Below are positions 13,285-56,037 of a DNA stretch of 64,000 nt, piece after piece. The stretch is from positions 1 to 64,000 of the forward strand of contig CAIOKO010000085.1 of the NCBI GenBank assembly GCA_903858935.1, read 5' to 3'. The notes beneath the pieces were generated by a model. That model saw nothing but the letters and a program-made list of their open reading frames with translations, was not told the DNA's origin and did no database searches. Origin of the DNA: an uncultured Schlesneria sp. (GTDB lineage: Bacteria > Planctomycetota > Planctomycetia > Planctomycetales > Planctomycetaceae). The position numbers and the translations under genes are program-made. Position 1 is the first letter of the stretch. Each line of letters begins with the position of its first letter.

Positions 13285-16200
13285 ATGTCGACGACTGACC
13301 GAACCGAACGAGTTGCCATTGTCGGCATCGGTGGCATCTTTCCAGGTGCGCCCGACCTGGGCACATTCTGGAAGAACATTGCCAACGGAATCGATTCGGG
13401 GCGAAACGTCCCGAAGGACCGCTGGTTTCTCAGTCCGGAAACTGCGTTTGATCGTGATGGGCCGAAATCAGATCGAGTCTATTCCACATGGGGCTGCTTT
13501 ATCGAAGATTTTCAGTTTGATCCAACAGGATTGAACCTGGACCGGAATCTCCTGGTGAAACTCGACCCGCTGTTCCATCTGGGTCTGCATGCGTCTCGCA
13601 TGGCCTGTCAGGATGCACGGGGACTTGTCGGTATCAGCCCGGATCGGGTCGGCGTTATTCTCGGGAATATTGTCCTGCCGACAGAATCGACGTCAGCAAT
13701 GTGTCGCGACGCACTGGGTCGGACATTTCTCGAACGGATCGTCGGATCAGCTCAGTTGACTGCCGAACGCCGCAGTCAATTGATGTCTGAATGTCGCCGC
13801 CATTCGCCACGTTCGGATTGGCATCCACTTAACCACTATGCGGCCAGCCTTCCGGCTGCGTTGATCGCCGAAGGCCTGGGACTGGGGGGGCCGGCCTATA
13901 CACTGGATGCCGCCTGTGCTTCCTCACTTTATGCCTTGAAATTTGCGTGCGAAGAACTGCTGGCTCATCGAGCCGATGGCATGTTGGCGGGAGGGATGTC
14001 GCGACCCGACTGCCAGTACACTCAGATGGGATTCGCTCAGCTCAAGGCATTGTCGCGACGTGGCCGCTGTGCTCCATTGAGCGCCGCTGCTGACGGCCTG
14101 GTAGTTGGCGAAGGGGCCGGAGTTTTCGTCCTCAAGCGATTGACCGATGCCATCAAATCGGGCGATCACATTTACGGAGTGATTGCCGGAATTGGTCTGT
14201 CGAACGATCGAGGTGCGAACCTGCTGGCACCTCATTCTGAAGGCCAGCTTCGCGCCATGCGATCAGCGTATCAGCAGGCAGGATGGCAACCGAGTGACGT
14301 TGACTTGATTGAATGTCATGCGACAGGGACTCCTGTCGGTGACAGCGTCGAAATTGACAGCCTGCATCAGTTATGGGAGCGGGAGCAGGCGGTTCCCGGC
14401 CAGTGTGTGATTGGGGGAGTGAAGTCGAATGTCGGTCACCTGCTGACGGGTGCCGGGGCAGCCGGTCTGATGAAGGTGTTATTGGCCATCAGACATCAGA
14501 CGCTGCCGCCGACCGCAAATTATGAAAAACCTGCGACGACGCTGGCAAAAGCCGGAAGCCCGTTTCGCGTCCTGCGCCAGGCGGAAGTGTGGGAACAACG
14601 TGTCGAAAAATCGGTGACTGAGCACGGGACGCGATCGGATTTGATTCCTCGTCGTGCCACAATCAATGCCTTTGGATTCGGCGGAATTAACGCGCATGTG
14701 TTGATTGAAGAATTCGTTGAAGCAACGTCGCACAAGGTCTCACGAACCGAAAACGGCGGCTTACCGATCAGCCTGGAATCCAGACAGTCCTCACTTCACG
14801 AGCCGAGTCTGAACATTGCCATCGTCGGCCTTGCGGTTCAGAGAGGAACGGAGGCATCATCTAACATCAACGGCCCCAAGCACGGTTCTGTAAACGAAAA
14901 CAATTTGCGGAATGACTGGGGAGTGACAGCGACGGAGTGGTATCGTGATGAAGTCGGCTCAGCGTTGGATGCACGCCAATCATTGTGTAACCCGATTTCG
15001 TCGCTTCATTTGCCGCTCGGCGAATACCGCATTCCTCCGCTGGAAATGCAGGATATGCTGCCGCAGCAGCAGTTGATGCTGAAGATTGCTGCCGACGCCT
15101 TGCGCGATGCCTTGCATCCAGACCAGGAACAAACTCTTCAAACGGCAACTGCCGCTTTGGGAAACCGTACTGGCGTGTTCATCGGCATCGAGCTTGATCC
15201 GAATACGACGAACTTCCATCTTCGCTGGTCGATTGAAGAATTGGCACCACAATGGGCAGACGTGCTTGGTCTGGTCCTTACTCCCACAGAGATGACTGAA
15301 TGGGTGGAGCAACTGAAGAAATCAGTCGGCCCACCGTTAACAGCCAATCGCGTGATGGGAAACCTGGGTGGCATCGTCGCCAGTCGGTTGGCTCGTGAAT
15401 TTAATGTCGGTGGTCCCAGCTTCACCATTTCTGCCGACGAGAATTCTGGTTTACGCGCGTGTGAAATGGCCGCCCATGCGCTGCGACGAGGGGAACTCGA
15501 TCAGGCTCTGGTTGGTGCGGTCGACCTGCCGTGCGATCTTCGAAGTCGGCTAGCCGCGTGGCGACTGTCCGGCAGACCAAAGGGAACTACGACCTTCGAT
15601 AGTGCAACGGCGTTTGTGCTGAAACGGTTCGAAGACGCAATTGCTGATGGTGACCCGATTCATGCTGTGATCACGCAGATTGATTCGTCGAATCAAAGAA
15701 ACAGCAACTCAGATTCATTCAATTATGCTGGTTCCGCGACTGGATTATTAGAGTTAGCAACTGCCACAGACTCATTGCGGCACCGCATTCTGCCAGGCTC
15801 AACTTCCGATCACTGGTTACACAATCGGTCGGACGGATCAAGACGAATTCGGGTATTGGGTCGAGGGGTCGACGGCCGAGGGCTAGCTTTTGAACTTGCG
15901 GATCGCCTCGACTCAACACCTTTCCATTCTCCGAAATCCAAGGTTCTGGAAACTCTGCGGTTGAATGTGGGTCTGTTTGTGATCGATGGTGACAGCATCG
16001 GAGAACTCGAATCAGGCTTGGATCGATTAGCGGAGTTGGCTGATTCACGTGAGTTGATCGGGCTGCTGGCAAAACGTTGGTTTTTGGCGCGACCGCCATG
16101 CGAAGGACGGCAATTGGCGGTCTCTCTCGTGGTCAAGTCGATCGATGAAATGCCAGAAGTCATTCGATTGGCGAAGGTTCGTCTTTACGGAAACTCGGCA

Positions 16201-19200
16201 GTCGACGGTATTGATCGGCGGATTTTCTTTTCGCGTGATCCGCTGGAAAATCGCGGTCGACTGGCATATGTCTTTCCGGGTTCGGGAAACGCGTTTCTTG
16301 GCATGGGCCGTGAGCTGCTTTCGGCGTTTCCCGAGATCCTGCTTCGACAAGATGCTAAGAACAATCGGTTGAAGGACCAATATCGTCCAGAGTTAATCTG
16401 GTACGGCAAGTCGAACGTGGAACTGTTAGATGATCACAAGGCGATGATCTTTGGCCAGGTTGCGATAGGGACTGGCGTGTGCGATCTGCTTGCACGCTTC
16501 GGTATCCAGCCTTCCGCCAGTCTTGGATATAGCCTGGGCGAGTCTGCGGCATTATTCGGATTACGCGCCTGGACTGATCGAGACGAAATGCTCGACCGAA
16601 TGGATGCCGCATCGCTGTTTGGCAGCGATCTGGTTCATCCGTTCAATGCGGCCAGACGTGCCTGGAACATTCCTGACGGGACTGACGTCCCGTGGGTCTC
16701 TGGTGTGATCGATCGTTCTGCGGATGAAGTTCGTGCGGCCATTGCCGCATCAAACACGAACGAGGCCACAGTTGATTCGGATCGTGCGTCGCGTGTTTAT
16801 CTGTTGATCGTTAATACACCAAATCAATGCGTCATCGGAGGTGATCGGGGCCAGGTTGAACGACTCGTCAAGAACTTGTCGGCGAAATTCGTTACGTTTG
16901 CGGCACCAAGTACGGTTCATTGTGAAATCCTTCGCCAGGTTGAATCGGCCTATCACTCACTACACGTGATGAGGACGACCGCACCCGCTTTCGCAGATGC
17001 GAATGGTCATTCGAGACCCATTGACTTTTACAGCACGGCATGGGGTTGTCCCTACGAGTTGACGCAGGAAAGCGCTGCTGAGGCCATCCTTGCACAAGCA
17101 GTCAATACGATCGATTTCCCCCGCGTGATCGAGCGAGCATATGCCGATGGTATCAGAGTATTTCTTGAGATCGGGCCAGGTTCATCGTGTACCCGAATGA
17201 TTGACGAGATACTCGACGTTCGTCCGCATCTTGCCCGATCGGTCCTTCCGGCCACGGCGAATCCGATTTCGACGTTCCTTGAATTGCTGGCAGCGTTGAT
17301 CGCAGAACGAGTTCCAGCCGACCTGACGTACCTCTATGGCGACGAACACTCGCAGCAAAGCAAGTCGACCAAAGTCCGTTCAAACCGGGAAATTGTGACC
17401 GAAACAGGAGGGCCACAATTCTCGATTCCCTCTCCTCCAAACGGCTGGCGATTTCAATTACGACCGATCACCATCAGTCATGATTTTGATGAAAATCCCA
17501 TTCCAGTCTTCGTAGAAGACCATCCACGCCGTCCTTCGATCGAAGAGAAGCTTCCATCGTTAACAAATACAAAACTTTTCACACCTGAACCTTCTGGACC
17601 GAATGTTATGACACAGTTGGACGATCTGCTGGCCGCCCGAATGAAGGCACACGAAACGTATCTTCGCGTGTCAGCCGAGGCGCAACGGATCATGGCCGAT
17701 CAGCTTGAATTGCTATCGAGACTCGCAGGTGGTGACACTCTTGAACCAGCCAATCCACCGATTGGAAATGTAACGGCATCGAACCTGGATTCAATCTCAG
17801 CGACTGAAACGACACCCCAGTTATTGACGACCGCCATCCCTTTGGTTCCACCTCGATCGCTGTCGCGCCCGCAGTGTATGGAATTTGCAATCGGCAAGAT
17901 CGGTCGCGTGCTGGGAGAATTATTTGCCGAGATCGATCAACATCCAACTCGAGTCAGACTACCTGATGAACCGTTAATGCTCGTCGACCGCATTCTTGAA
18001 ATTGATGGTGAACCACTTTCAATGACATTCGGCCGTGTTGTGACGGAACACGACATTCATCCGGGTGCATGGTATCTCGATTGCAATCGGATTCCGACAT
18101 GTATTGCCGTTGAAGCGGGTCAGGCAGATTTGTTCTTGTCGGGATGGCTGGGGATCGATTTTGAAACGAAGGGAATCGCCAGTTATCGATTACTGGATGC
18201 CGTCGTCACATTTCACCGCGAATTGCCGGGACCGGGTGAGACGATTCATTACGACATACGCATTAATCACTTCTTTCGCCAGGGTCAGACCTACCTGTTC
18301 CGTTTCGAGTTCGACGCCACGATCAATGGCCAACGACTGTTGACGATGCGGGAAGGATGTGCAGGCTTCTTCACCGAAGCCGAACTGGCTGGAGGGAAGG
18401 GGATTGTTCATACGGCGCTGGACCGACAACCTCGCCCGGGAAAGCGTTCAGCCGACTGGACGGATCTCGTTGCAATGGGGGTCGAGAGTTATGACGATCG
18501 CCAATTGATGGCGTTAAGACAAGGGCAGCTTGGTACGTGTTTTGGCCCGGCCTTTCAGCGACTTTCTTTAGAATGTCCCGTGACCATTCCGGGTTTGACG
18601 AATGATCAATTATCAGTATCCAGTCGACGGTCGAAGATGTGGTTGATCGATCGTGTACTGAAGCTTGATCCGAGCGGAGGGAAATTTGGCTTGGGGATGA
18701 TCCTGGGTGAGCTGGACATTCATCCGAATGACTGGTTCCTGACCTGTCACTTCTGTGACGATCAGGTGATGCCCGGGACGCTCATGTATGAATGCTGTAT
18801 GCACACGCTACGGATCTTCCTGTTGCGCATGGGATGGGTGGGCGAATCGGGACAAATGGCGTACGAGCCGATCCCGGAAGTGCGCAGTCGGCTGAAGTGT
18901 CGCGGCCAGGTTCTCGCCAGTACAAAAAAGGTCTGGTACGAGATTACCCTTAAGGAAATTGGATATACCGAAACCGGAACTCCCTACTGCCTTGCCGATG
19001 CCCTGATGTATGCCGATGGCAAGCCGATCGTCGAGATTACCGATATGTCGGTCCGATTGTCCGGGCTGACACGCGACGCGATCGAACGCCTGTGGTCGGG
19101 ACCAACAACCGCTCGCGGCGTATCTACGACACCGGCACACGGCTTGAGTGCGCACGGTGCGACTCATTCGTCGACGATACCCCAACCCGTTTACGACCGA

Positions 19201-20304
19201 CGTCCGGCCTTGTTTGACACCGATCGCATCACGGCATACGCCATTGGAAACCCTTCAGATGCGTTTGGCGAACGATATCGCATTTTTGATTCGGATCGGA
19301 TCATCGCGAGACTGCCAGGCCCTCCTTTTCAGTTTCTGGACCGGATCGTCGCAATCAGCGGGTGTGAGCAGTGGGTGTTGAAACCGGGGGGAGAGGTTGT
19401 TGCGCAATATGATGTTCCACCAGATGCCTGGTATTTTGCATCCAACCGTCAAAAGCGGATGCCGTTTGCTGTCCTGCTTGAGACGGCGCTGCAACCGTGT
19501 GGATGGCTGGCTGCGTATGTCGGATCAGCTTTGACCAGCGATATCGACGTCTCTTTCCGCAACCTTGGCGGCACGGCAACTCAGTACCGCGACGTCACCG
19601 CAGCATCGGGGACTCTGACGACGACGGTGAAAATGACTCGCGTTTCCACTTCTGGTGGCATGATTATTCAGCATTACGATTTTGACCTCAGGTGCAATGA
19701 CGAACCGGTTTACGTCGGCAACACGTACTTTGGTTTCTTCTCCAAAGCATCGTTGATCAATCAGATTGGCATTCGGGATGCGAAACCATTTGTTCCGTCC
19801 CCCGCAGATGACCAATATTGCACTAACTTTCGTTATCTCGACCAGGCACCGTTCGCTGATTCGCAATTTCAAATGATCGATGATGTGAAGTTATCTTTAG
19901 CGAACGGGCCGTTCGGTAACGGCTTTGTCATCGGAACAACTTCAGTCGACCCGACATCGTGGTTCTTTAAGGCCCACTTCCACCAGGACCCGGTTGTACC
20001 CGGTTCGCTGGGTCTTGAGTCGTTTTTTCAACTTGTGAAGTTCTATGCAGCCCGGCGATGGAAACTCGGTGAAAACGCTCAGTTCACGACGCCAATCATC
20101 CACCGGCCGGGAGGTCAGATTCATGGGAAGCATGAATGGGTCTATCGAGGACAGGTGATCCCACGAGACAAGCTTGTCACGGTCACTGCGGTCATCAAGC
20201 AAGTTGACGATGCGACCAAACAATTGACGGCCGAAGGCTTCTTGTCGATTGACGGCAGAATCATTTATCAGATGAAGGAATTTTCCGCCGGGGTTCAAGC
20301 GTAA
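13285..20304 (+). CDS. Pfa-type lipid/polyketide megasynthase: KS - CLF - AT - (pseudoDH-DH) x2, no ACP
   Basis: A 2339-residue multidomain protein like PfaC of polyunsaturated-fatty-acid synthases, with an added acyltransferase. KS (about 1-480): LDAACASSL (Cys211), ECHATGTP (His345), SNVGHLLTG (His385). A second KS-like domain (about 510-900) has SADENSGL, with Glu719 where the Cys should be: a chain-length-factor-like partner. AT (about 985-1330): GYSLGES (Ser1083) and His1212. A helical linker (about 1440-1480) follows. Then come four hotdog units: two degenerate (near MLVDRILEIDG and FQFLDRIVAISG) and two with the FabA/FabZ-type active site, CHFCDDQVMPGTL (His1822) and AHFHQDPVVPGSL (His2231). 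No carrier-protein Ser motif is seen, so ACPs must come from another gene that is not in this window. No partner ER, KR or PPTase is nearby. The product, a lipid or polyene, cannot be told. Confidence 0.88.
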   Translation: MSTTDRTERVAIVGIGGIFPGAPDLGTFWKNIANGIDSGRNVPKDRWFLSPETAFDRDGPKSDRVYSTWGCFIEDFQFDPTGLNLDRNLLVKLDPLFHLGLHASRMACQDARGLVGISPDRVGVILGNIVLPTESTSAMCRDALGRTFLERIVGSAQLTAERRSQLMSECRRHSPRSDWHPLNHYAASLPAALIAEGLGLGGPAYTLDAACASSLYALKFACEELLAHRADGMLAGGMSRPDCQYTQMGFAQLKALSRRGRCAPLSAAADGLVVGEGAGVFVLKRLTDAIKSGDHIYGVIAGIGLSNDRGANLLAPHSEGQLRAMRSAYQQAGWQPSDVDLIECHATGTPVGDSVEIDSLHQLWEREQAVPGQCVIGGVKSNVGHLLTGAGAAGLMKVLLAIRHQTLPPTANYEKPATTLAKAGSPFRVLRQAEVWEQRVEKSVTEHGTRSDLIPRRATINAFGFGGINAHVLIEEFVEATSHKVSRTENGGLPISLESRQSSLHEPSLNIAIVGLAVQRGTEASSNINGPKHGSVNENNLRNDWGVTATEWYRDEVGSALDARQSLCNPISSLHLPLGEYRIPPLEMQDMLPQQQLMLKIAADALRDALHPDQEQTLQTATAALGNRTGVFIGIELDPNTTNFHLRWSIEELAPQWADVLGLVLTPTEMTEWVEQLKKSVGPPLTANRVMGNLGGIVASRLAREFNVGGPSFTISADENSGLRACEMAAHALRRGELDQALVGAVDLPCDLRSRLAAWRLSGRPKGTTTFDSATAFVLKRFEDAIADGDPIHAVITQIDSSNQRNSNSDSFNYAGSATGLLELATATDSLRHRILPGSTSDHWLHNRSDGSRRIRVLGRGVDGRGLAFELADRLDSTPFHSPKSKVLETLRLNVGLFVIDGDSIGELESGLDRLAELADSRELIGLLAKRWFLARPPCEGRQLAVSLVVKSIDEMPEVIRLAKVRLYGNSAVDGIDRRIFFSRDPLENRGRLAYVFPGSGNAFLGMGRELLSAFPEILLRQDAKNNRLKDQYRPELIWYGKSNVELLDDHKAMIFGQVAIGTGVCDLLARFGIQPSASLGYSLGESAALFGLRAWTDRDEMLDRMDAASLFGSDLVHPFNAARRAWNIPDGTDVPWVSGVIDRSADEVRAAIAASNTNEATVDSDRASRVYLLIVNTPNQCVIGGDRGQVERLVKNLSAKFVTFAAPSTVHCEILRQVESAYHSLHVMRTTAPAFADANGHSRPIDFYSTAWGCPYELTQESAAEAILAQAVNTIDFPRVIERAYADGIRVFLEIGPGSSCTRMIDEILDVRPHLARSVLPATANPISTFLELLAALIAERVPADLTYLYGDEHSQQSKSTKVRSNREIVTETGGPQFSIPSPPNGWRFQLRPITISHDFDENPIPVFVEDHPRRPSIEEKLPSLTNTKLFTPEPSGPNVMTQLDDLLAARMKAHETYLRVSAEAQRIMADQLELLSRLAGGDTLEPANPPIGNVTASNLDSISATETTPQLLTTAIPLVPPRSLSRPQCMEFAIGKIGRVLGELFAEIDQHPTRVRLPDEPLMLVDRILEIDGEPLSMTFGRVVTEHDIHPGAWYLDCNRIPTCIAVEAGQADLFLSGWLGIDFETKGIASYRLLDAVVTFHRELPGPGETIHYDIRINHFFRQGQTYLFRFEFDATINGQRLLTMREGCAGFFTEAELAGGKGIVHTALDRQPRPGKRSADWTDLVAMGVESYDDRQLMALRQGQLGTCFGPAFQRLSLECPVTIPGLTNDQLSVSSRRSKMWLIDRVLKLDPSGGKFGLGMILGELDIHPNDWFLTCHFCDDQVMPGTLMYECCMHTLRIFLLRMGWVGESGQMAYEPIPEVRSRLKCRGQVLASTKKVWYEITLKEIGYTETGTPYCLADALMYADGKPIVEITDMSVRLSGLTRDAIERLWSGPTTARGVSTTPAHGLSAHGATHSSTIPQPVYDRRPALFDTDRITAYAIGNPSDAFGERYRIFDSDRIIARLPGPPFQFLDRIVAISGCEQWVLKPGGEVVAQYDVPPDAWYFASNRQKRMPFAVLLETALQPCGWLAAYVGSALTSDIDVSFRNLGGTATQYRDVTAASGTLTTTVKMTRVSTSGGMIIQHYDFDLRCNDEPVYVGNTYFGFFSKASLINQIGIRDAKPFVPSPADDQYCTNFRYLDQAPFADSQFQMIDDVKLSLANGPFGNGFVIGTTSVDPTSWFFKAHFHQDPVVPGSLGLESFFQLVKFYAARRWKLGENAQFTTPIIHRPGGQIHGKHEWVYRGQVIPRDKLVTVTAVIKQVDDATKQLTAEGFLSIDGRIIYQMKEFSAGVQA

Positions 20305-21618: not shown

Positions 21619-23268
21619 ATGGATTGGCTGACGTCACTTCGAGACCAATTGCCGCTGTTGCTCGTGTTGTCGCCCTTGATCGGATTTGTTGTGACGTTGA
21701 TTGCGTCACGGTTCGAACCGGGACTGGTACGTACGCTCGCTATTTCTAACGCACTTTGCAGCCTGTTTATCCTGGCAGGACTCGAGTGGCAGTTTGAGTT
21801 GGATCTCGCGGCAGATGCAGACATCATCCGGCTTGCCGAGCGTGAAATCGCGAAATCCGACAGGGAAATCGGTTCGATAAGTGAAGTCCGCCGGACATTG
21901 GATCGACGTCGCGTTGAACGGCTTCGCCATCAATGGTTTGCCGTCGATGGAACCAATCTTTTTCCCGTACTGCTTCTGACTATGATGACAATCGTCGTCA
22001 TCCAGCGAACGAATTCGTCACCTGACATCAACCGCTATTTTATTCCAATTGTCCTGTTGTTTGAGACCGCTTCGCTGGGCCTCATGATAACTTACGATCT
22101 AGGAATCTATCTTATTTTGTCCGCCGCGAGTGCCGTCGTCATCAGTCTTTTGATCGGCCAATACGGCAATTCAGAACGTCGCTCGAACGCCGGGCATTTC
22201 TTGACGGCTCAATACTGCGGGGGTGCGTTTGTCACGATGGGGTTTGCGATACTGGTCGTCGCTGTCCCATGGATGAAAATCCAGGATTCGACGAACACTC
22301 CGTCGATTTCATGGAACATCGCCAGCATCACTCAAGAGATTCAAAAATGGGCCACTCGGAACGAATTGGCTTACCACTATGTTTACGAGTGCTTCCCTTG
22401 GATGTTGCTGGTATTGTCGATGGGGTTCGCAATTCAAGCGGGATTGTTTCCGTTTCATTCCGCGCAAATCAGCGTGATGACCAGCGCTCGACCTGAGATT
22501 GCCGTACTTTTACTGGCTGGAACGTTATCGGCCAGTCGCATTGGCTGGCTCAGGTTTGTCATGCCGCTGGCTCCTGACCTGATGGTTTCGTTCGATGGCT
22601 GGATGTTGATTCCTTCGTTCGGTGGTGCCGTTTGGGGTGCGTTCCGTGCAATTGCCCCGACCGAATCGCGATATCGGCCTGCGTACGTCTATCTGAGCAT
22701 TTCCGGCGTCCTGCTGCTGGGCTGCTATTGCTTCACACGAATCGGAATGGCCGGTGCATGGCTGATGCAACAGCAATTGACCGTGATCATGTGCTCGATC
22801 CTTTTAATGATCGATGATCGCCAGATTCCTGAAAACGACATTGGCCCCGTCAATGAAGCAACAGTTGGAGTGAGGTTGAGTACTCGGGCTCTGTTGTTGT
22901 TAGCCTGCTTTCCGATACTTGGATTCTTCGCGAGCAGTTATCTGATCGTTGCAGAATTATTGAACGACAATCTGCTTCTTGCGGCGACGGTATTTATCAT
23001 TGCGGCATTGATTTTCAGCGTTCTCAAATTGGCGATCGAGCAACATGGCCGAATGGAAACACTTTATGGTTCAAGCGTGAACCGCAAATGGCGACTTCCC
23101 ATCTGGTTCATGGCGATCCTTTCGCTGACGATTGCATCAACTGTGTTTCCAGGATGGTTGCTCCACCAGTGCGAACCAGAGTTTGCACGCGTTTTCCGTC
23201 GATTCGAGCAAATACCATCTGCAGATTTCGCCGAACCTGCAACAAATGACCGGCAATCAGCACCGTAA
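21619..23268 (+). CDS. Divergent NuoM-like (Mrp/complex I antiporter-type) membrane protein
   Basis: A 549-residue polytopic membrane protein. It follows NuoM in outline: VDGTNLFPVLLLTMMTIVVI matches the VDG-S-FF helix of the family, VLLFETASLGLMI keeps the essential TM5 glutamate (Glu149), and GFAIQAGLFPFH matches A-V-K-x-P-L-F-P-F-H. The TM7 lysine is Gln273 and the TM8 lysine position in AGTLSASRIGWLRF is also not Lys. A charged insertion (about 64-104) separates the first helices. No other complex I gene is near, so it is an orphan. It may be a structural or regulatory paralogue, or part of a membrane complex that does not pump protons this way. The ATG follows an AAAGGGA site. Confidence 0.72.
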   Translation: MDWLTSLRDQLPLLLVLSPLIGFVVTLIASRFEPGLVRTLAISNALCSLFILAGLEWQFELDLAADADIIRLAEREIAKSDREIGSISEVRRTLDRRRVERLRHQWFAVDGTNLFPVLLLTMMTIVVIQRTNSSPDINRYFIPIVLLFETASLGLMITYDLGIYLILSAASAVVISLLIGQYGNSERRSNAGHFLTAQYCGGAFVTMGFAILVVAVPWMKIQDSTNTPSISWNIASITQEIQKWATRNELAYHYVYECFPWMLLVLSMGFAIQAGLFPFHSAQISVMTSARPEIAVLLLAGTLSASRIGWLRFVMPLAPDLMVSFDGWMLIPSFGGAVWGAFRAIAPTESRYRPAYVYLSISGVLLLGCYCFTRIGMAGAWLMQQQLTVIMCSILLMIDDRQIPENDIGPVNEATVGVRLSTRALLLLACFPILGFFASSYLIVAELLNDNLLLAATVFIIAALIFSVLKLAIEQHGRMETLYGSSVNRKWRLPIWFMAILSLTIASTVFPGWLLHQCEPEFARVFRRFEQIPSADFAEPATNDRQSAP

Positions 23269-23448: not shown

Positions 23449-24318
23449 ATGAACCGCACACTTCTTAACTGCATGGCCCTGGCGGGTCTGGTGAGCATTA
23501 TGCCAGCGAACGTGGATGCTCAATGTCGTAAATGTGCATCGCAACAAGCGATGTTGCCTCCCGTTGTCCCAATGGCTGCGGCACCTGCCAATTGCACGAT
23601 CTCTCAGACGCGTCCTGTCGTGACAACTCAGCTTCGCCCACAATCGGTGACGACGTTTCGAGATGTGACCGAAACACAGATGCAACAAAAACAAGTCGTC
23701 GAAAACGTCCCGGTGACGACCACGAAAAATGTCACGGTCGATGAGGGTGGTTTTCAGATGGTTTGGGTTCCCAAGCCCGTGACCAAGCAAGTTGCGGAAA
23801 CGACCCTTCAGCAGCAGGTGAAGACGGTTTCCGTTCCGGTACAGGTCACTCGCCGAGTTCCCCAGATGGCGACCCAAATGGTTCCGGTGCAGTCGGTCCA
23901 ATACGTGACCGAGCATGTTCCGGTGCAAGCGATGGCCATTGCTCGCCCTGCCTGCTCGACATGTGGCAACAGCCAGGCGTTCGGTATGCCGCTATTCGCA
24001 CCTCAAATCGGATACGCACCTGCTTACCAGGCTGTCCCCTATGCAACGGCTGTGATTCCTCAGACACCGGTCAGCACGGTTCCAACACAGCAGACGGCTT
24101 CGATTACCGCCCCTGCTTACCAGCCAACACCAGCCCAGCAAGAGACGGTTCCGGCTCGTTCCACGCCTGAACCTTACGAAACGGTGCCACCTCGAGGAGG
24201 TGTGCCGATGCCAAAAGACGAGGCGACATCACCGGCACCTGCTCGCAAGACATCAATGTTTAACGGTGTTCCATCAGCTGCTTCCGTCTGGCAGTCCCGG
24301 AACTCGGTCACACGCTAG
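23449..24318 (+). CDS. Secreted Gln/Val/Pro-rich protein with VPV-type repeats
   Basis: A 289-residue exported protein without a named domain. The signal peptide is MNRTLLNCMALAGLVSIM to VDA. Residues of about 60-170 repeat a short pattern of Val-Pro-Val and Thr-rich strands (VVENVPVTTTKNVTV; QVKTVSVPVQVTRRVP; TQMVPVQSVQYVTEHVPVQA), similar to the YTV-type repeats of planctomycete surface proteins. The middle has Cys pairs (CRKC, CSTCG), and the tail is Pro/Thr/Ala-rich. The ATG at 23449 is chosen because GAGGAG lies at 23435-23440. It is likely part of the cell envelope or a surface protein. The last 45 bp overlap the convergent epimerase gene. Confidence 0.78.
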   Translation: MNRTLLNCMALAGLVSIMPANVDAQCRKCASQQAMLPPVVPMAAAPANCTISQTRPVVTTQLRPQSVTTFRDVTETQMQQKQVVENVPVTTTKNVTVDEGGFQMVWVPKPVTKQVAETTLQQQVKTVSVPVQVTRRVPQMATQMVPVQSVQYVTEHVPVQAMAIARPACSTCGNSQAFGMPLFAPQIGYAPAYQAVPYATAVIPQTPVSTVPTQQTASITAPAYQPTPAQQETVPARSTPEPYETVPPRGGVPMPKDEATSPAPARKTSMFNGVPSAASVWQSRNSVTR

Positions 24319-25329
24319 GTCCTGTTCTCGACTGCCGACGGATGTACTCTTTAGCGACTCCGTCAATCGCCGAAGTCCTTCTTCGATGGTGATTCGAGGG
24401 ACGTAACCGAGGTCACGTCGAGCGGCATCGAGTCGAAACCAGTGAGCAGTCGAAAGTTGGCGGGCGACGAACCGGGTCATTCTCGGTTCGTCCGTGCGGC
24501 GGGTGAGTGTGTAGATTGTCTCGAGCACCCCGCCGACAGCGTAGGCCGTCGTGGCTGAAATGCGACCCGTAATCGGGGCGACGTCAGCACACGCGAGCAG
24601 CCGATTGATGAGATCCCAAAGCGGCTGCGGTTCTTCATTGGAAATGAAAAAGGCTTTACCTGCTGCTTTTGAGCCGATTTCCAGTCGGTCAAATGCCAAT
24701 AAATGCGCATCGGCCGCGTTATCAATATAGGTTGTGTCGACAAGATTCTTGCCATTTCCGACTTGCCGCAACTGACCTGACCGAGCTCGTTGAATCAGCC
24801 TCGGAACAAGATGGTTATCACCGGGTCCCCAGATCAAGTGGGGACGAAGCGACACGGTGGCCAGTTGATCCCCGTTTGCCGTCATGACCATTCGCTCGCC
24901 GATCGCCTTAGTCAGCGGATAATGAGCCAGGTAGCTGGACGGATAAGAAACAGATTCATCGATACCGACTTCGTCCTTTCCGTTGAAGACCACGCTGGGC
25001 GAACTCGTATAAATCAGCTTGCAGATCCTGTGTGATTGACACGCGGCAATCACGTTCCGGGTACCGATCACGTTTGCATGATGATAGTCATCGTATCGTC
25101 CCCAGACACCTGCCTTTGCAGCGACGTGGAACACCGCCTGACAGCCTGCAGCAGCCTGTTGAACTATCGCCGCATCAGCGATGTCTCCTTTCACGCAATC
25201 GACACCCAACGTTTCGAGTTCCAGGGATGCGCTCCGCTGCAGGCTTCGCACCATGTCACCTCGCGCAAGCAGGCGTCGAACAATCGCTTGCCCGAGAAAT
25301 CCATTACCACCCGTTACTAAAACACGCAT
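24274..25329 (-). CDS. NAD-dependent epimerase/dehydratase (3beta-HSD-like extended SDR)
   Basis: A 351-residue extended short-chain dehydrogenase. MRVLVTGGNGFLGQAIVRRL is the Rossmann start, VKGDIADAAIVQQAA the cofactor Asp region, and YPLTKAIGERMV holds the catalytic Tyr-x3-Lys with the Ser in YTSSPSVVFNG. The pattern is close to the 3beta-hydroxysteroid dehydrogenase/HpnA group, often tied to isoprenoid, hopanoid or sugar-nucleotide chemistry. The substrate is not readable. The gene is convergent with, and overlaps by 45 bp, the secreted VPV protein gene. Confidence 0.88.
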   Translation of the reverse strand: MRVLVTGGNGFLGQAIVRRLLARGDMVRSLQRSASLELETLGVDCVKGDIADAAIVQQAAAGCQAVFHVAAKAGVWGRYDDYHHANVIGTRNVIAACQSHRICKLIYTSSPSVVFNGKDEVGIDESVSYPSSYLAHYPLTKAIGERMVMTANGDQLATVSLRPHLIWGPGDNHLVPRLIQRARSGQLRQVGNGKNLVDTTYIDNAADAHLLAFDRLEIGSKAAGKAFFISNEEPQPLWDLINRLLACADVAPITGRISATTAYAVGGVLETIYTLTRRTDEPRMTRFVARQLSTAHWFRLDAARRDLGYVPRITIEEGLRRLTESLKSTSVGSREQDLACDRVPGLPDGSS

Positions 25330-27740: not shown

Positions 27741-28008
27741 AACCCGAAGCCATCGGCGCAGGCGGATCGGCGTCCAGCCGATTTCTTCGAGCGTTGCCGA
27801 GCCTCGACGGGAAGACGAAACAAGAGGCTAACATTCGCAAAATGAACGATGACGCCTCAGGCTTTTCAGCGACGCCGGCTGACTCGCTTCTCTGCAAGGA
27901 ACGATTAAACGGTCAAAAGACCTGCAAAATGGAACGTTGAGCACGCCTGACCGACGGCATACAATGTGTCTTCTTTCAAAAACATGCATTTTCCCAAGGC
28001 AATCTACG

Positions 28009-30255
28009 ATGCGACGAGTGCGAACGGGCGGTGGTTGGCCAGCAGTACGATACACCTTCAGCAAGGCGCGCGAAGCAGGTGGATTGTGGAAATTATGGAA
28101 AGCCATGCGTTCAAAAAACGCTTGCAAGACGTGTGCTCTGGGAATGGGAGGTCAGCAAGGAGGGATGGCCAATGAACGGGGCGTCTTCCCCGAGGTTTGC
28201 AAAAAGTCGCTGCAAGCGATGGTGTCTGACATGCAAGGGGCGGTGACGCCCGACTTCTTTAAAACCTACTCGATTCCACAACTACAGATGTTCTCGCCAC
28301 GGGAACTCGAAAACAGCGGTCGACTGACACAACCCGTAATTCATCGAAAAGGCGAGAACTATTATCAGCCGATCTCGTGGGAAGATGCATTCAAAAAAAT
28401 CATCGCGAAGCTGACACCCGCCTCGCCAGAAAACGCCAATTTGGATTCGTCGCAACGGGCAAAACCAAACGAAACTTTCTGGTATTTCAGTGGTCGCAGT
28501 TCCAACGAAGCCGGATTCCTGTTGCAAGTCTTTGCCCGCGTCTTCGGAACGAACAACGTCAATAACTGTTCGTTCTATTGTCATCAGGCGAGCGGTGTGG
28601 GACTCGGCAGCGTCCTCGGTACCGGCACGGCCACTCTGGTCCTCGAAGACGTCGAGCATGCCGACCTTGTCTTCATCATCGGAGGAAACCCTGCCAGTAA
28701 TCATCCACGTCTGATGTCGACTCTGAAAAATCTCCGACGAAAAGGGGGACATGTTGTTGTGATCAACCCGATTGTTGAAACCGGGTTGGTCACTTTCAGC
28801 GTACCGAGTGATCCCATCAGCCTGTTGTTCGGAACCAAGATCGCATCGTTGTACGTTCAGCCTCATATTGGTGGTGACCTGGCTCTGCTGACAGGCATCG
28901 CCAAACGGATCGTGGAAATGAATGCCCACGACGAGCACTACCTGGAAACTTACTGCGATCATTGGCCAGAACTGAAGGCGCAACTCGCTGGCCTCGACTG
29001 GAACGAGATCTACCGCAAATCGGGTGTCGATGCCGCAGCCATTCAGGCGATTGCCACACGGTATGCGAATGCCGAAAACGTCGTCTTCACCTGGACGATG
29101 GGAATCACACACCATACGTACGGTGTCGAAAACGTCGAAGCGATCGCGAATCTTGCGCTACTGCGAGGGATGGTCGGACGACCCAACGCGGGATTGTTGC
29201 CCATTCGAGGTCATTCCAACGTTCAGGGAATTGGTTCGATGGGGGTCACTCCGCAGCTGAAAGAAGCGATCTTTGAACGATTACAGACGCACTATGGACT
29301 GCAGCTTCCGACGACGGCCGGGCTTGATACGCTGGCCTGCATGGAGGCGGCCAGTCGAAAAGAATTGAAGTTCGGCTTCTGCCTGGGTGGAAACCTGTAT
29401 GGCTCGAATCCCGATTCAACTTTCGCAGAACGTGCGCTCGGTGAGTTAGATCTTCTTGTTCATCTCAACACGACACTGAATACAGGCCATGCCCACGGAC
29501 TCGCCAAAGAGACAATTATTCTGCCGGTGCTGGCACGCGATGAAGAGCCTCAAGCCACCACTCAGGAATCAATGTTCAACTACATCCGTTTAAGTGACGG
29601 CGGGCCATCAAGGCATGTCGGGCCCAAAAGCGAAATCGAAGTCATCGCCACAATCGCCAGCGGTGTACTGGGTAACAAGGGGCCTATCGATTGGGAATCG
29701 ATGCGCAATACCAATCGAATTCGCGAAGCGATTGCCAAGGTCGTTCCAGGCTTCGAAAAGATCAAAGACATTGGTGCGACAAAGAAAGAGTTTCAACTTG
29801 ACGGCCGCACGTTTCATACGCCGGAATTTCCGACGAAAAATGGCAAAGCCCAGTTGCGAGTCCACTCGCTACCCGAACTGATCGGGGGCCCGAACGAGTT
29901 GCGTATGATGACGATTCGAAGTGAAGGACAGTTCAATACGGTCGTGTATGAAGACTACGATCTCTATCGAGGCATTGAAGGCCGATTTGTCATCCTGATT
30001 CATCCCGACGATCTTGTTCGCTTTCGTCTGCTACCGGGTCAAAAGGTGACGGTTCGTAGCGGGACGGGCGAAATGACAAATATCATCGCCACGCCGTTTG
30101 AAAAAATCCGACCGGGGAACGCGGCGATGTACTATCCTGAATGCAATATTCTGGTTCCTCGCTTCGTCGACCCAAGATCCCGCACACCCGGTTTTAAGTT
30201 AGTAATCATTACGATTGAAGCGACGAAGGTAGGTCGATTGCCCCTGCTGAGGTAA
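28009..30255 (+). CDS. FdhF/YdeP-type molybdopterin oxidoreductase
   Basis: A 748-residue member of the YdeP/'oxidoreductase alpha subunit' branch of molybdopterin enzymes related to formate dehydrogenase. The N-terminal GGGWPAVRYTFSKAREAGG and NACKTCALGMGGQ are typical of the branch, with one CxxC only and no full 4Fe-4S ligand set. The cofactor-proximal motif is FYCHQASGVGLGS: Cys191 stands where E. coli FdhF has selenocysteine. The middle (ADLVFIIGGNPASNHPRLM) and C-terminal beta-barrel domain (LLPGQKVTVRSGTGE) bind the bis-MGD cofactor. The start is ATG 28009; earlier in-frame starts precede low-similarity sequence. It is a single gene, so electron partners are not known. moeA at 54.8-56.0 kb would help supply its cofactor. 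The substrate is not known; YdeP itself is linked to acid resistance. Confidence 0.88.
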   Translation: MRRVRTGGGWPAVRYTFSKAREAGGLWKLWKAMRSKNACKTCALGMGGQQGGMANERGVFPEVCKKSLQAMVSDMQGAVTPDFFKTYSIPQLQMFSPRELENSGRLTQPVIHRKGENYYQPISWEDAFKKIIAKLTPASPENANLDSSQRAKPNETFWYFSGRSSNEAGFLLQVFARVFGTNNVNNCSFYCHQASGVGLGSVLGTGTATLVLEDVEHADLVFIIGGNPASNHPRLMSTLKNLRRKGGHVVVINPIVETGLVTFSVPSDPISLLFGTKIASLYVQPHIGGDLALLTGIAKRIVEMNAHDEHYLETYCDHWPELKAQLAGLDWNEIYRKSGVDAAAIQAIATRYANAENVVFTWTMGITHHTYGVENVEAIANLALLRGMVGRPNAGLLPIRGHSNVQGIGSMGVTPQLKEAIFERLQTHYGLQLPTTAGLDTLACMEAASRKELKFGFCLGGNLYGSNPDSTFAERALGELDLLVHLNTTLNTGHAHGLAKETIILPVLARDEEPQATTQESMFNYIRLSDGGPSRHVGPKSEIEVIATIASGVLGNKGPIDWESMRNTNRIREAIAKVVPGFEKIKDIGATKKEFQLDGRTFHTPEFPTKNGKAQLRVHSLPELIGGPNELRMMTIRSEGQFNTVVYEDYDLYRGIEGRFVILIHPDDLVRFRLLPGQKVTVRSGTGEMTNIIATPFEKIRPGNAAMYYPECNILVPRFVDPRSRTPGFKLVIITIEATKVGRLPLLR

Positions 30256-54810: not shown

Positions 54811-56037
54811 TCACCAACCGAAGGTTTCAAGTTCGTCGCCGGCTCGGTACTGACGAGCCTCGCCAGAAAGATAGGCCATTCCATTCGCTGCGACGGTACC
54901 GCAGAGATCGGACGAACCATGCCAAGGGACCAGCGTGACAGCGAGACTGCCAGCCCTTTGGGTCAAACGCGCCGGATGATACGTCGGGCGGTCGGGTCGG
55001 GTCGAGTAATCGTGCTCAAGTTTCGCCAATTTCGGCGGAACCATTACCGGCACCAATCCCATCAATCGCCTGATAGCTGTACGAACGAACAACTCACAAC
55101 AAACCAAGCTGCTAACGGGGTTTCCTGGCAAGCCAAATACGTAACATTGGGAACAATCCCCATGATCCGTAAGGCCGTTTCGCCCCCCTTTTCCAAACCA
55201 GATCGGCTTCCCCGGCTTCATATCAACCTTGTGAAAGATTTCGGTCACACCCATTTCAGCGAGTGTGATTGGCACAAGATCAAGTGTGCCAGCCGATACG
55301 CCACCCGAAAGAACAAGGATGTCGCATTGCAGTCCCTGTTGAATTTTCAGTCGCAACTCATCACGATCGTCGCGTGCAATGCCAAGTCTAACTGGAATGC
55401 CGCCGGCAATCTCGATCTGAGCGGCCAGCATGGATGCATTGGAATTCCTGATCTGAGCAGGTCCTGGTTTTTCTTCGATGGGAACCAACTCGTCACCGGT
55501 CGCAAGTACAGCGACATTTGGTCGACGGCGAGCGGGTACAACGGCGTATCCCAGTTCAGCAAGTGCTCCAATACGGGGAGCACTTAAAACATCACCAATA
55601 CGCAGAACACGGTCTCCGGCTGAAGCGGATGTTCCGCGTAGGATCGTGTTCGTTCCCACTCGCAGCGGCACCGTTTTAATTAAGACTTGATCGCCGTCCC
55701 GAGAAGTCTCCTCAATCTTGACGACAACATCGGCACCACCAGGCATCGGGGCACCCGTCATGATTTGAGCCGCTTCGCCCGCTCCGACGTTTTTCATGGG
55801 AACGCGGCCAGCCGTGATGATTTCCGTTACGCGAAGCGATGCAAAGCCGCTCGAAACGTCTCTCGAGCGGACCGCGTAACCATCCATCAAACTCTTGTCA
55901 AACGGGGGAATGTCTTCTGGACTGTAGACGTCTTCCCCGAGCACCAGTCCGAGCGAGTCTTCCAGAGTAATATCCGTAAGACCAAACGGCTGGACCGTTG
56001 CCACCAATTTTTCGATCGCTGCGGCAACCGTCAGCAT
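54811..56037 (-). CDS. moeA: Molybdopterin molybdotransferase MoeA
   Basis: A 408-residue MoeA, which inserts molybdate into adenylylated molybdopterin. The N-terminal LEDSLGLVLGEDVYSPEDIP and DKSLMDGYAVRSRD, then IMTGAPMPGGADVVVKIEE and the C-terminal domain VAVLATGDELVPIEEKPG, RNSNASMLAAQIEIAGG and SGGVSAGTLDLVP are all present. It serves enzymes such as the FdhF-type oxidoreductase at 28-30 kb. It is transcribed just before mgtE, 10 bp apart. Confidence 0.95.
   Translation of the reverse strand: MLTVAAAIEKLVATVQPFGLTDITLEDSLGLVLGEDVYSPEDIPPFDKSLMDGYAVRSRDVSSGFASLRVTEIITAGRVPMKNVGAGEAAQIMTGAPMPGGADVVVKIEETSRDGDQVLIKTVPLRVGTNTILRGTSASAGDRVLRIGDVLSAPRIGALAELGYAVVPARRRPNVAVLATGDELVPIEEKPGPAQIRNSNASMLAAQIEIAGGIPVRLGIARDDRDELRLKIQQGLQCDILVLSGGVSAGTLDLVPITLAEMGVTEIFHKVDMKPGKPIWFGKGGRNGLTDHGDCSQCYVFGLPGNPVSSLVCCELFVRTAIRRLMGLVPVMVPPKLAKLEHDYSTRPDRPTYHPARLTQRAGSLAVTLVPWHGSSDLCGTVAANGMAYLSGEARQYRAGDELETFGW

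Follow-up and report, generated by a model that had tools for sequence, protein, structure and literature searches.

The gene at positions 13285..20304 (+) of the window, a stretch of 64,000 nucleotides from a contig of an uncultured Schlesneria sp., probably codes for the fused PfaBC protein, second subunit of a Type I-like Pfa synthase, acting within a dispersed Pfa/Ole hydrocarbon pathway. The PfaBC enzyme is of a known kind and it is the layout of the genes that is new. That a whole planctomycete clade keeps its pfa pathway in dispersed form is new as far as the accessible literature shows, and an earlier report is possible.

The pfaBC gene is a single open frame with an ATG start and codes for 2339 amino acids; among named records the most similar ones come from uncultured Schlesneria and from S. 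paludicola, which places the host in the Planctomycetaceae. The Pfam matches are two ketoacyl-synt stretches, Ketoacyl-synt_C, Acyl_transf_1 and four FabA-like stretches. The domain order KS-CLF-AT-DH'-DH-DH'-DH, read from the DNA alone in an earlier note, was confirmed by Pfam, NCBIfam and an alignment with 11 orthologues. The KS domain (13306..14739, +; Pfam: PF00109 and PF02801) carries the triad C211, H345 and H385, which is unchanged in the 11 orthologues. In the CLF, the chain-length partner of the KS (approximately 14812..15684, +, with a second PF00109 stretch at 15028-15546), E719 indeed stands at the Cys position, as the same note had observed, but the Glu itself is not conserved, with E, A, Q, D or G in this column across the orthologues and Cys in none. 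A single unbroken alignment to PDB 6riw spans residues 8-752, covering KS and CLF. The acyltransferase (16237..17334, +) has its S1083 in a GYSLGE motif and H1212, both invariant in the alignment. Its best PDB match is PfaB 9ry8 (4e-23, the next best being 1e-8), and the TIGR02816 pfaB_fam model matches residues 989-1347 with 69 bits, which is under the cut-off of 144, and also matches all 11 orthologues. Judged by these similarities the AT is of the PfaB type.

After a variable linker without ACP (17392..17874, +) follow two hotdog pairs. The first consists of a degenerate DH' (approximately 17887..18474, +), one of the four FabA stretches, and an active FabA-like DH/isomerase (18631..19062, +; H1822, E1836), which holds the best PF07977 stretch and scores above the NF003509 cut-off with 213.8 bits. 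The second consists of a degenerate DH' located by alignment (approximately 19237..19764, +) and an active FabA-like DH/isomerase (19837..20289, +; H2231, E2245), recognised by its FabA-like stretch and the alignment. The His and Glu of both active hotdogs are invariant across the 11 orthologues, and the partner hotdogs of both pairs lack the catalytic His. One degenerate and one active hotdog together count as one DH, and with two such pairs the protein has the DH2 that is normal for PfaC. The polypeptide thus has what characterises a pfaBC fusion, namely KS-CLF-AT-DH2 in one chain, a KS with C-H-H and a CLF without the condensing Cys. Full-length relatives with the identical domain order occur in many phyla at 39-65% identity, and this order is therefore beyond chance.

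The Pfam profile search detected no PP-binding, KR or ER domain in the PfaBC protein, no ACP, KR or ER was seen among the flanking genes scanned with Pfam and NCBIfam, and the genome-wide profile search gave no PP-binding match on the pfaBC contig, all of which agrees with the earlier note. An ACP concealed in the linker at residues 1440-1530, which the note had named as a possible refutation, was considered and rejected. The linker has no HMM match, and its single ACP-like string, LDSIS (residues ~1501-1505), is found in none of the other aligned orthologues and is therefore not an ACP.

Other genes of the window were also annotated. Just downstream of pfaBC there is a lone NADH-quinone oxidoreductase subunit M-like protein (21619-23268, +; TIGR01972, below cut-off), whose position beside pfaBC is conserved only in G004, the closest relative checked. 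Further along, an FdhF/YdeP-type molybdopterin oxidoreductase is encoded at 27937-30255 (+; above its cut-off), and at 54811-56037 (-) lies a gene for a molybdenum cofactor protein resembling MoeA.

The synthase had been called an orphan, dependent on a carrier from elsewhere, and a genome search for an ACP-repeat PfaA, an ER and a PPTase had been proposed. The host genome, which has a size of 7.93 Mb and is in 280 contigs, contains all three, so the synthase is not an orphan, and a carrier is indeed available on another contig. The single PfaA (2510 residues, KS-MAT-ACPx4-KR-PS-DH) adjoins pfaD on contig C138 (72.6 kb); pfaBC is on C85 (84.8 kb), and both loci lie well inside their contigs. 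PfaA scores 1747 bits against TIGR02813 (cut-off 1010) and has four LGIDSIK motifs, corresponding to four ACPs. PfaBC could act with a different ACP, though nothing else of the PfaA type turned up in the genome. PfaD, the ER, is likewise present in one copy (633 bits, cut-off 449), and a Sfp/HetI-like PPTase is encoded on C212.

The genome also contains a complete oleABCD set, with OleA on C187, OleB on C254, OleC on C57 and OleD in the window. OleB and OleC were recognised because they resemble the genes that clustered relatives have between oleA and oleD. The solved relatives of OleA, 3s21 and 3row, bear the deposited name 3-oxoacyl-ACP synthase III; we take them to be Xanthomonas OleA. The OleD-like 2-alkyl-3-oxoalkanoate reductase (24274..25329, -; NF042422 453 bits, below the cut-off of 580) lies 4 kb downstream of pfaBC, shares 55-63% identity with the OleD proteins from pfa-ole clusters, and is probably a pathway partner. 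Its closeness to pfaBC may be due to chance; among the genomes checked it was seen in G000 and G004 and not in G002, and we therefore do not take it as main evidence. With PfaA, PfaD, the PPTase and OleA-C on other contigs and OleD in the window, the synthase of this Schlesneria genome is, on its gene content, complete but dispersed.

Across 170 Planctomycetaceae genomes, in which pfaBC was scored by its DH part, pfaBC and pfaD are found in the same 28 genomes, with one pfaD each, and neither is found in the other 142, although co-occurrence within one clade is not independent evidence. Three of the 28 (G059, G147 and G148) have a divergent pfaBC, which is clustered with pfaDA in G059 and G147. 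In the remaining 25, pfaBC and pfaDA are on separate contigs or, in four single-contig chromosomes, far apart, with distances by the shorter way round of ~1.8 Mb (G002), 3.5 Mb (G015), 1.6 Mb (G132) and 1.7 Mb (G133). Isosphaeraceae and Gemmataceae have a single pfaD-pfaA-pfaBC-ole cluster. The genes pfaD-pfaA-pfaBC-oleA-oleB are contiguous in G042, G046, G047, G050, G053 and G058, and are followed by oleC-oleD in all of these but G042 (oleC being assigned by position and similarity). Intermediate layouts exist: in genera g44 and g54 pfaBC-oleA-oleB-oleC stay together, with oleD where the fetched stretch reaches it, and pfaDA is elsewhere, while pfaBC and oleA are adjacent also in Planctopirus, G015 and Schlesneria G008. 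In most Schlesneria oleA has moved away from pfaBC as well.

The wider sample consisted of 80 named pfaBC loci. Where enough upstream sequence was available, pfaA was found upstream of pfaBC in 36 of 46 loci, thus the split is uncommon but not limited to Planctomycetaceae; oleA follows pfaBC directly in 55 of the 69 loci with enough downstream sequence and is absent there in 14. Six loci from Thiotrichaceae, other Gammaproteobacteria and other lineages (L136, L182, L185, L124, L129 and L118) have pfaBC without pfaA in the ~10 kb upstream, and may represent independent splits. The pfaA frame of Isosphaera pallida (L089:2286-12029) is divided into two overlapping ORFs of 672 and 2234 amino acids, which suggests a frameshift or sequencing error. 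In Schlesneria G007 there is a second pair of large frames with KS (G007:C19:182417-191004, in L101; 1866 and 3145 amino acids), which may belong to a different secondary lipid or PKS system.

FastTree trees were built for PfaBC, PfaA, PfaD and OleA, and the group with split genes is monophyletic in all four (support 1.0, 1.0, 0.96 and 0.92, respectively). Tree distances correlate between PfaBC and PfaD (r = 0.88) and between PfaBC and OleA (r = 0.90), as is expected of any vertically kept genes and is by itself no proof of contact. The inner branching differs in places where support is weak, so the trees fix the order of the break-up events only in part. By these trees the Schlesneria genes share descent with the clustered planctomycete pfa genes. 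Since they are not contiguous, with pfaBC on C85, pfaDA on C138 and the two unlinked in closed relatives, we class the system as related to Type I but dispersed, and not as a Type I cluster.

OleA is found in 159 of the 170 family genomes and its presence alone therefore says little. In the OleA tree the split-clade sequences join the pfa-linked ones from other families (0.95) and stand apart from those of family members without pfa, to which they are 36-42% identical compared to 74-93% among themselves. Each genome of the pfa clade has one OleA. In pfa-bearing Planctomycetaceae (including L048:1498-2691) OleA has a ~40-residue insertion, which is missing in pfa-less relatives and mostly missing in the clustered Isosphaeraceae.

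The reading which we regard as best, and as probable from the sequence comparisons, is a Type I-like Pfa/Ole pathway for a polyunsaturated, 31:9-like hydrocarbon, dispersed but retained. PfaBC would act in trans with PfaA and PfaD from the remote locus, the growing chain being held on the PfaA ACPs after their activation by the Sfp-type PPTase. The KS-CLF of PfaBC would carry out part of the condensations, and the two double-hotdog DH/isomerases would dehydrate and shift double bonds so that these become cis and methylene-interrupted. Handling or off-loading of long acyl chains may fall to the PfaB-type AT; a recent study showed that stand-alone PfaB is a terminal acyltransferase for long chains (PMC12895367). 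OleA would then accept a polyunsaturated acyl-ACP, probably C16:4-like, and OleBCD would turn the head-to-head product into the long polyunsaturated hydrocarbon. In Shewanella, OleA draws acyl groups directly from the Pfa ACPs and with OleBCD yields a 31:9 hydrocarbon (PMC6463001), and Geobacter with Type I genes produces hentriacontanonaene (PMC3098273). By analogy to these two, we favour the hydrocarbon outcome, given the conserved neighbourhood of pfaBC and oleA and the pfa type of OleA. No published hydrocarbon profile of Schlesneria or Isosphaeraceae was found in the literature searched.

The same Pfa system could instead make a membrane PUFA (EPA-like) or another long-chain acid, with the Ole enzymes serving FAS II chains. 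PfaA does exceed the cut-off of an omega-3 PfaA model, PUFA-producing Psychroflexus (Type D) has the same pfaBC architecture, and the near universality of OleA in Planctomycetaceae would suit a separate role. We nevertheless consider this product unlikely, as the sole OleA of each pfa-clade genome is of the pfa-linked kind, unlike that of pfa-less relatives, and oleA is mostly the next gene after pfaBC where relatives are concerned. Moreover, the published polar-lipid fatty acids of P. limnophila (PMC3035269) and the polar-lipid profile of I. pallida (PMC3072084) list no PUFA, which fits a diversion to hydrocarbon, although growth temperature or conditions may also account for it. A self-standing megasynthase with a FAS II or NRPS/PKS carrier and an unrelated product is strongly disfavoured and in our view very improbable. 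The flanks do lack carrier and reductase, and the genome also has free ACPs and NRPS-like carriers, but the perfect co-occurrence with pfaD, the clustering of pfaBC with pfaDA in sister families and the matching trees speak against it. We also rejected as hardly credible that faulty assembly or binning of a genome in 280 contigs had produced the separation of pfaBC and pfaDA, given the position of both loci well inside long contigs and the megabase distances in the four single-contig chromosomes.

For the dispersed Pfa/Ole pathway, an ancestral pfaD-pfaA-pfaBC-oleABCD cluster would probably have broken first into two loci and in Schlesneria into about five, with all genes kept. More tentatively, and with somewhat less than even confidence, we propose that the subunits, now megabases apart, have been kept intact across at least six genera of one clade since this stepwise pfa-ole break-up, with a clade-specific OleA whose insertion adapts it to the synthase.

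Among the known systems, the closest is Type I of Geobacter and Gemmata (PMC3098273, Shulse & Allen 2011), which shares the fused pfaBC, the PfaA and PfaD homologues and the ole genes; Geobacter MAG proteins are ~43-48% identical to PfaBC, in most cases over the full length. In contrast to the clustered Type I genes, pfaDA, pfaBC and most ole genes of Schlesneria are unlinked. The internal AT, which the earlier note set against systems with AT in PfaB or PfaA, is not new, since fused pfaBC genes are described in Types C and D (KS-CLF-AT-DH2) as well as H and I (PMC3098273) and myxobacterial Pfa3 carries an AT (PMC8436480, PMC6731297). The note's other possible refutation, an identical architecture with an assigned product, therefore applies as far as the architecture is concerned, whereas a demonstrated product exists only for relatives.

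Type J of Planctomyces limnophilus (PMC3098273) has an isolated pfaD-pfaA pair as on C138 and was published as apparently partial. In G133, which we infer to be P. limnophila, two loci of the chromosome (L203/L204; G133:C1:4298124-4305038 and 580597-589618) lie 1.7 Mb apart and between them carry the pfaD-pfaA and the pfaBC-oleA pair. Type J of this species is split rather than partial, which is again new as far as the accessible literature shows and may have been reported earlier. A seemingly orphan synthase or a seemingly partial cluster may thus be half of a dispersed complete system. Genetic tools and genome-wide essential-gene work exist for P. limnophila (PMC10632474), so with Type J reinterpreted it becomes directly testable how Pfa, Ole and polyunsaturated hydrocarbon are linked in aerobic planctomycetes.

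Pfa3 of the myxobacteria Aetherobacter and Minicystis resembles the Schlesneria PfaBC in having the AT inside the KS-CLF-DH subunit, but has a C-terminal AGPAT and sometimes DH4, neither of which is present in Schlesneria. The pfaABCD and oleABCD genes of Shewanella, with their 31:9 hydrocarbon (PMC6463001), match in content, as PfaA, PfaD, the PfaB-type AT, the PfaC domains and OleA-D are all present, while PfaB and PfaC are separate there and fused in Schlesneria, where the genes are scattered.
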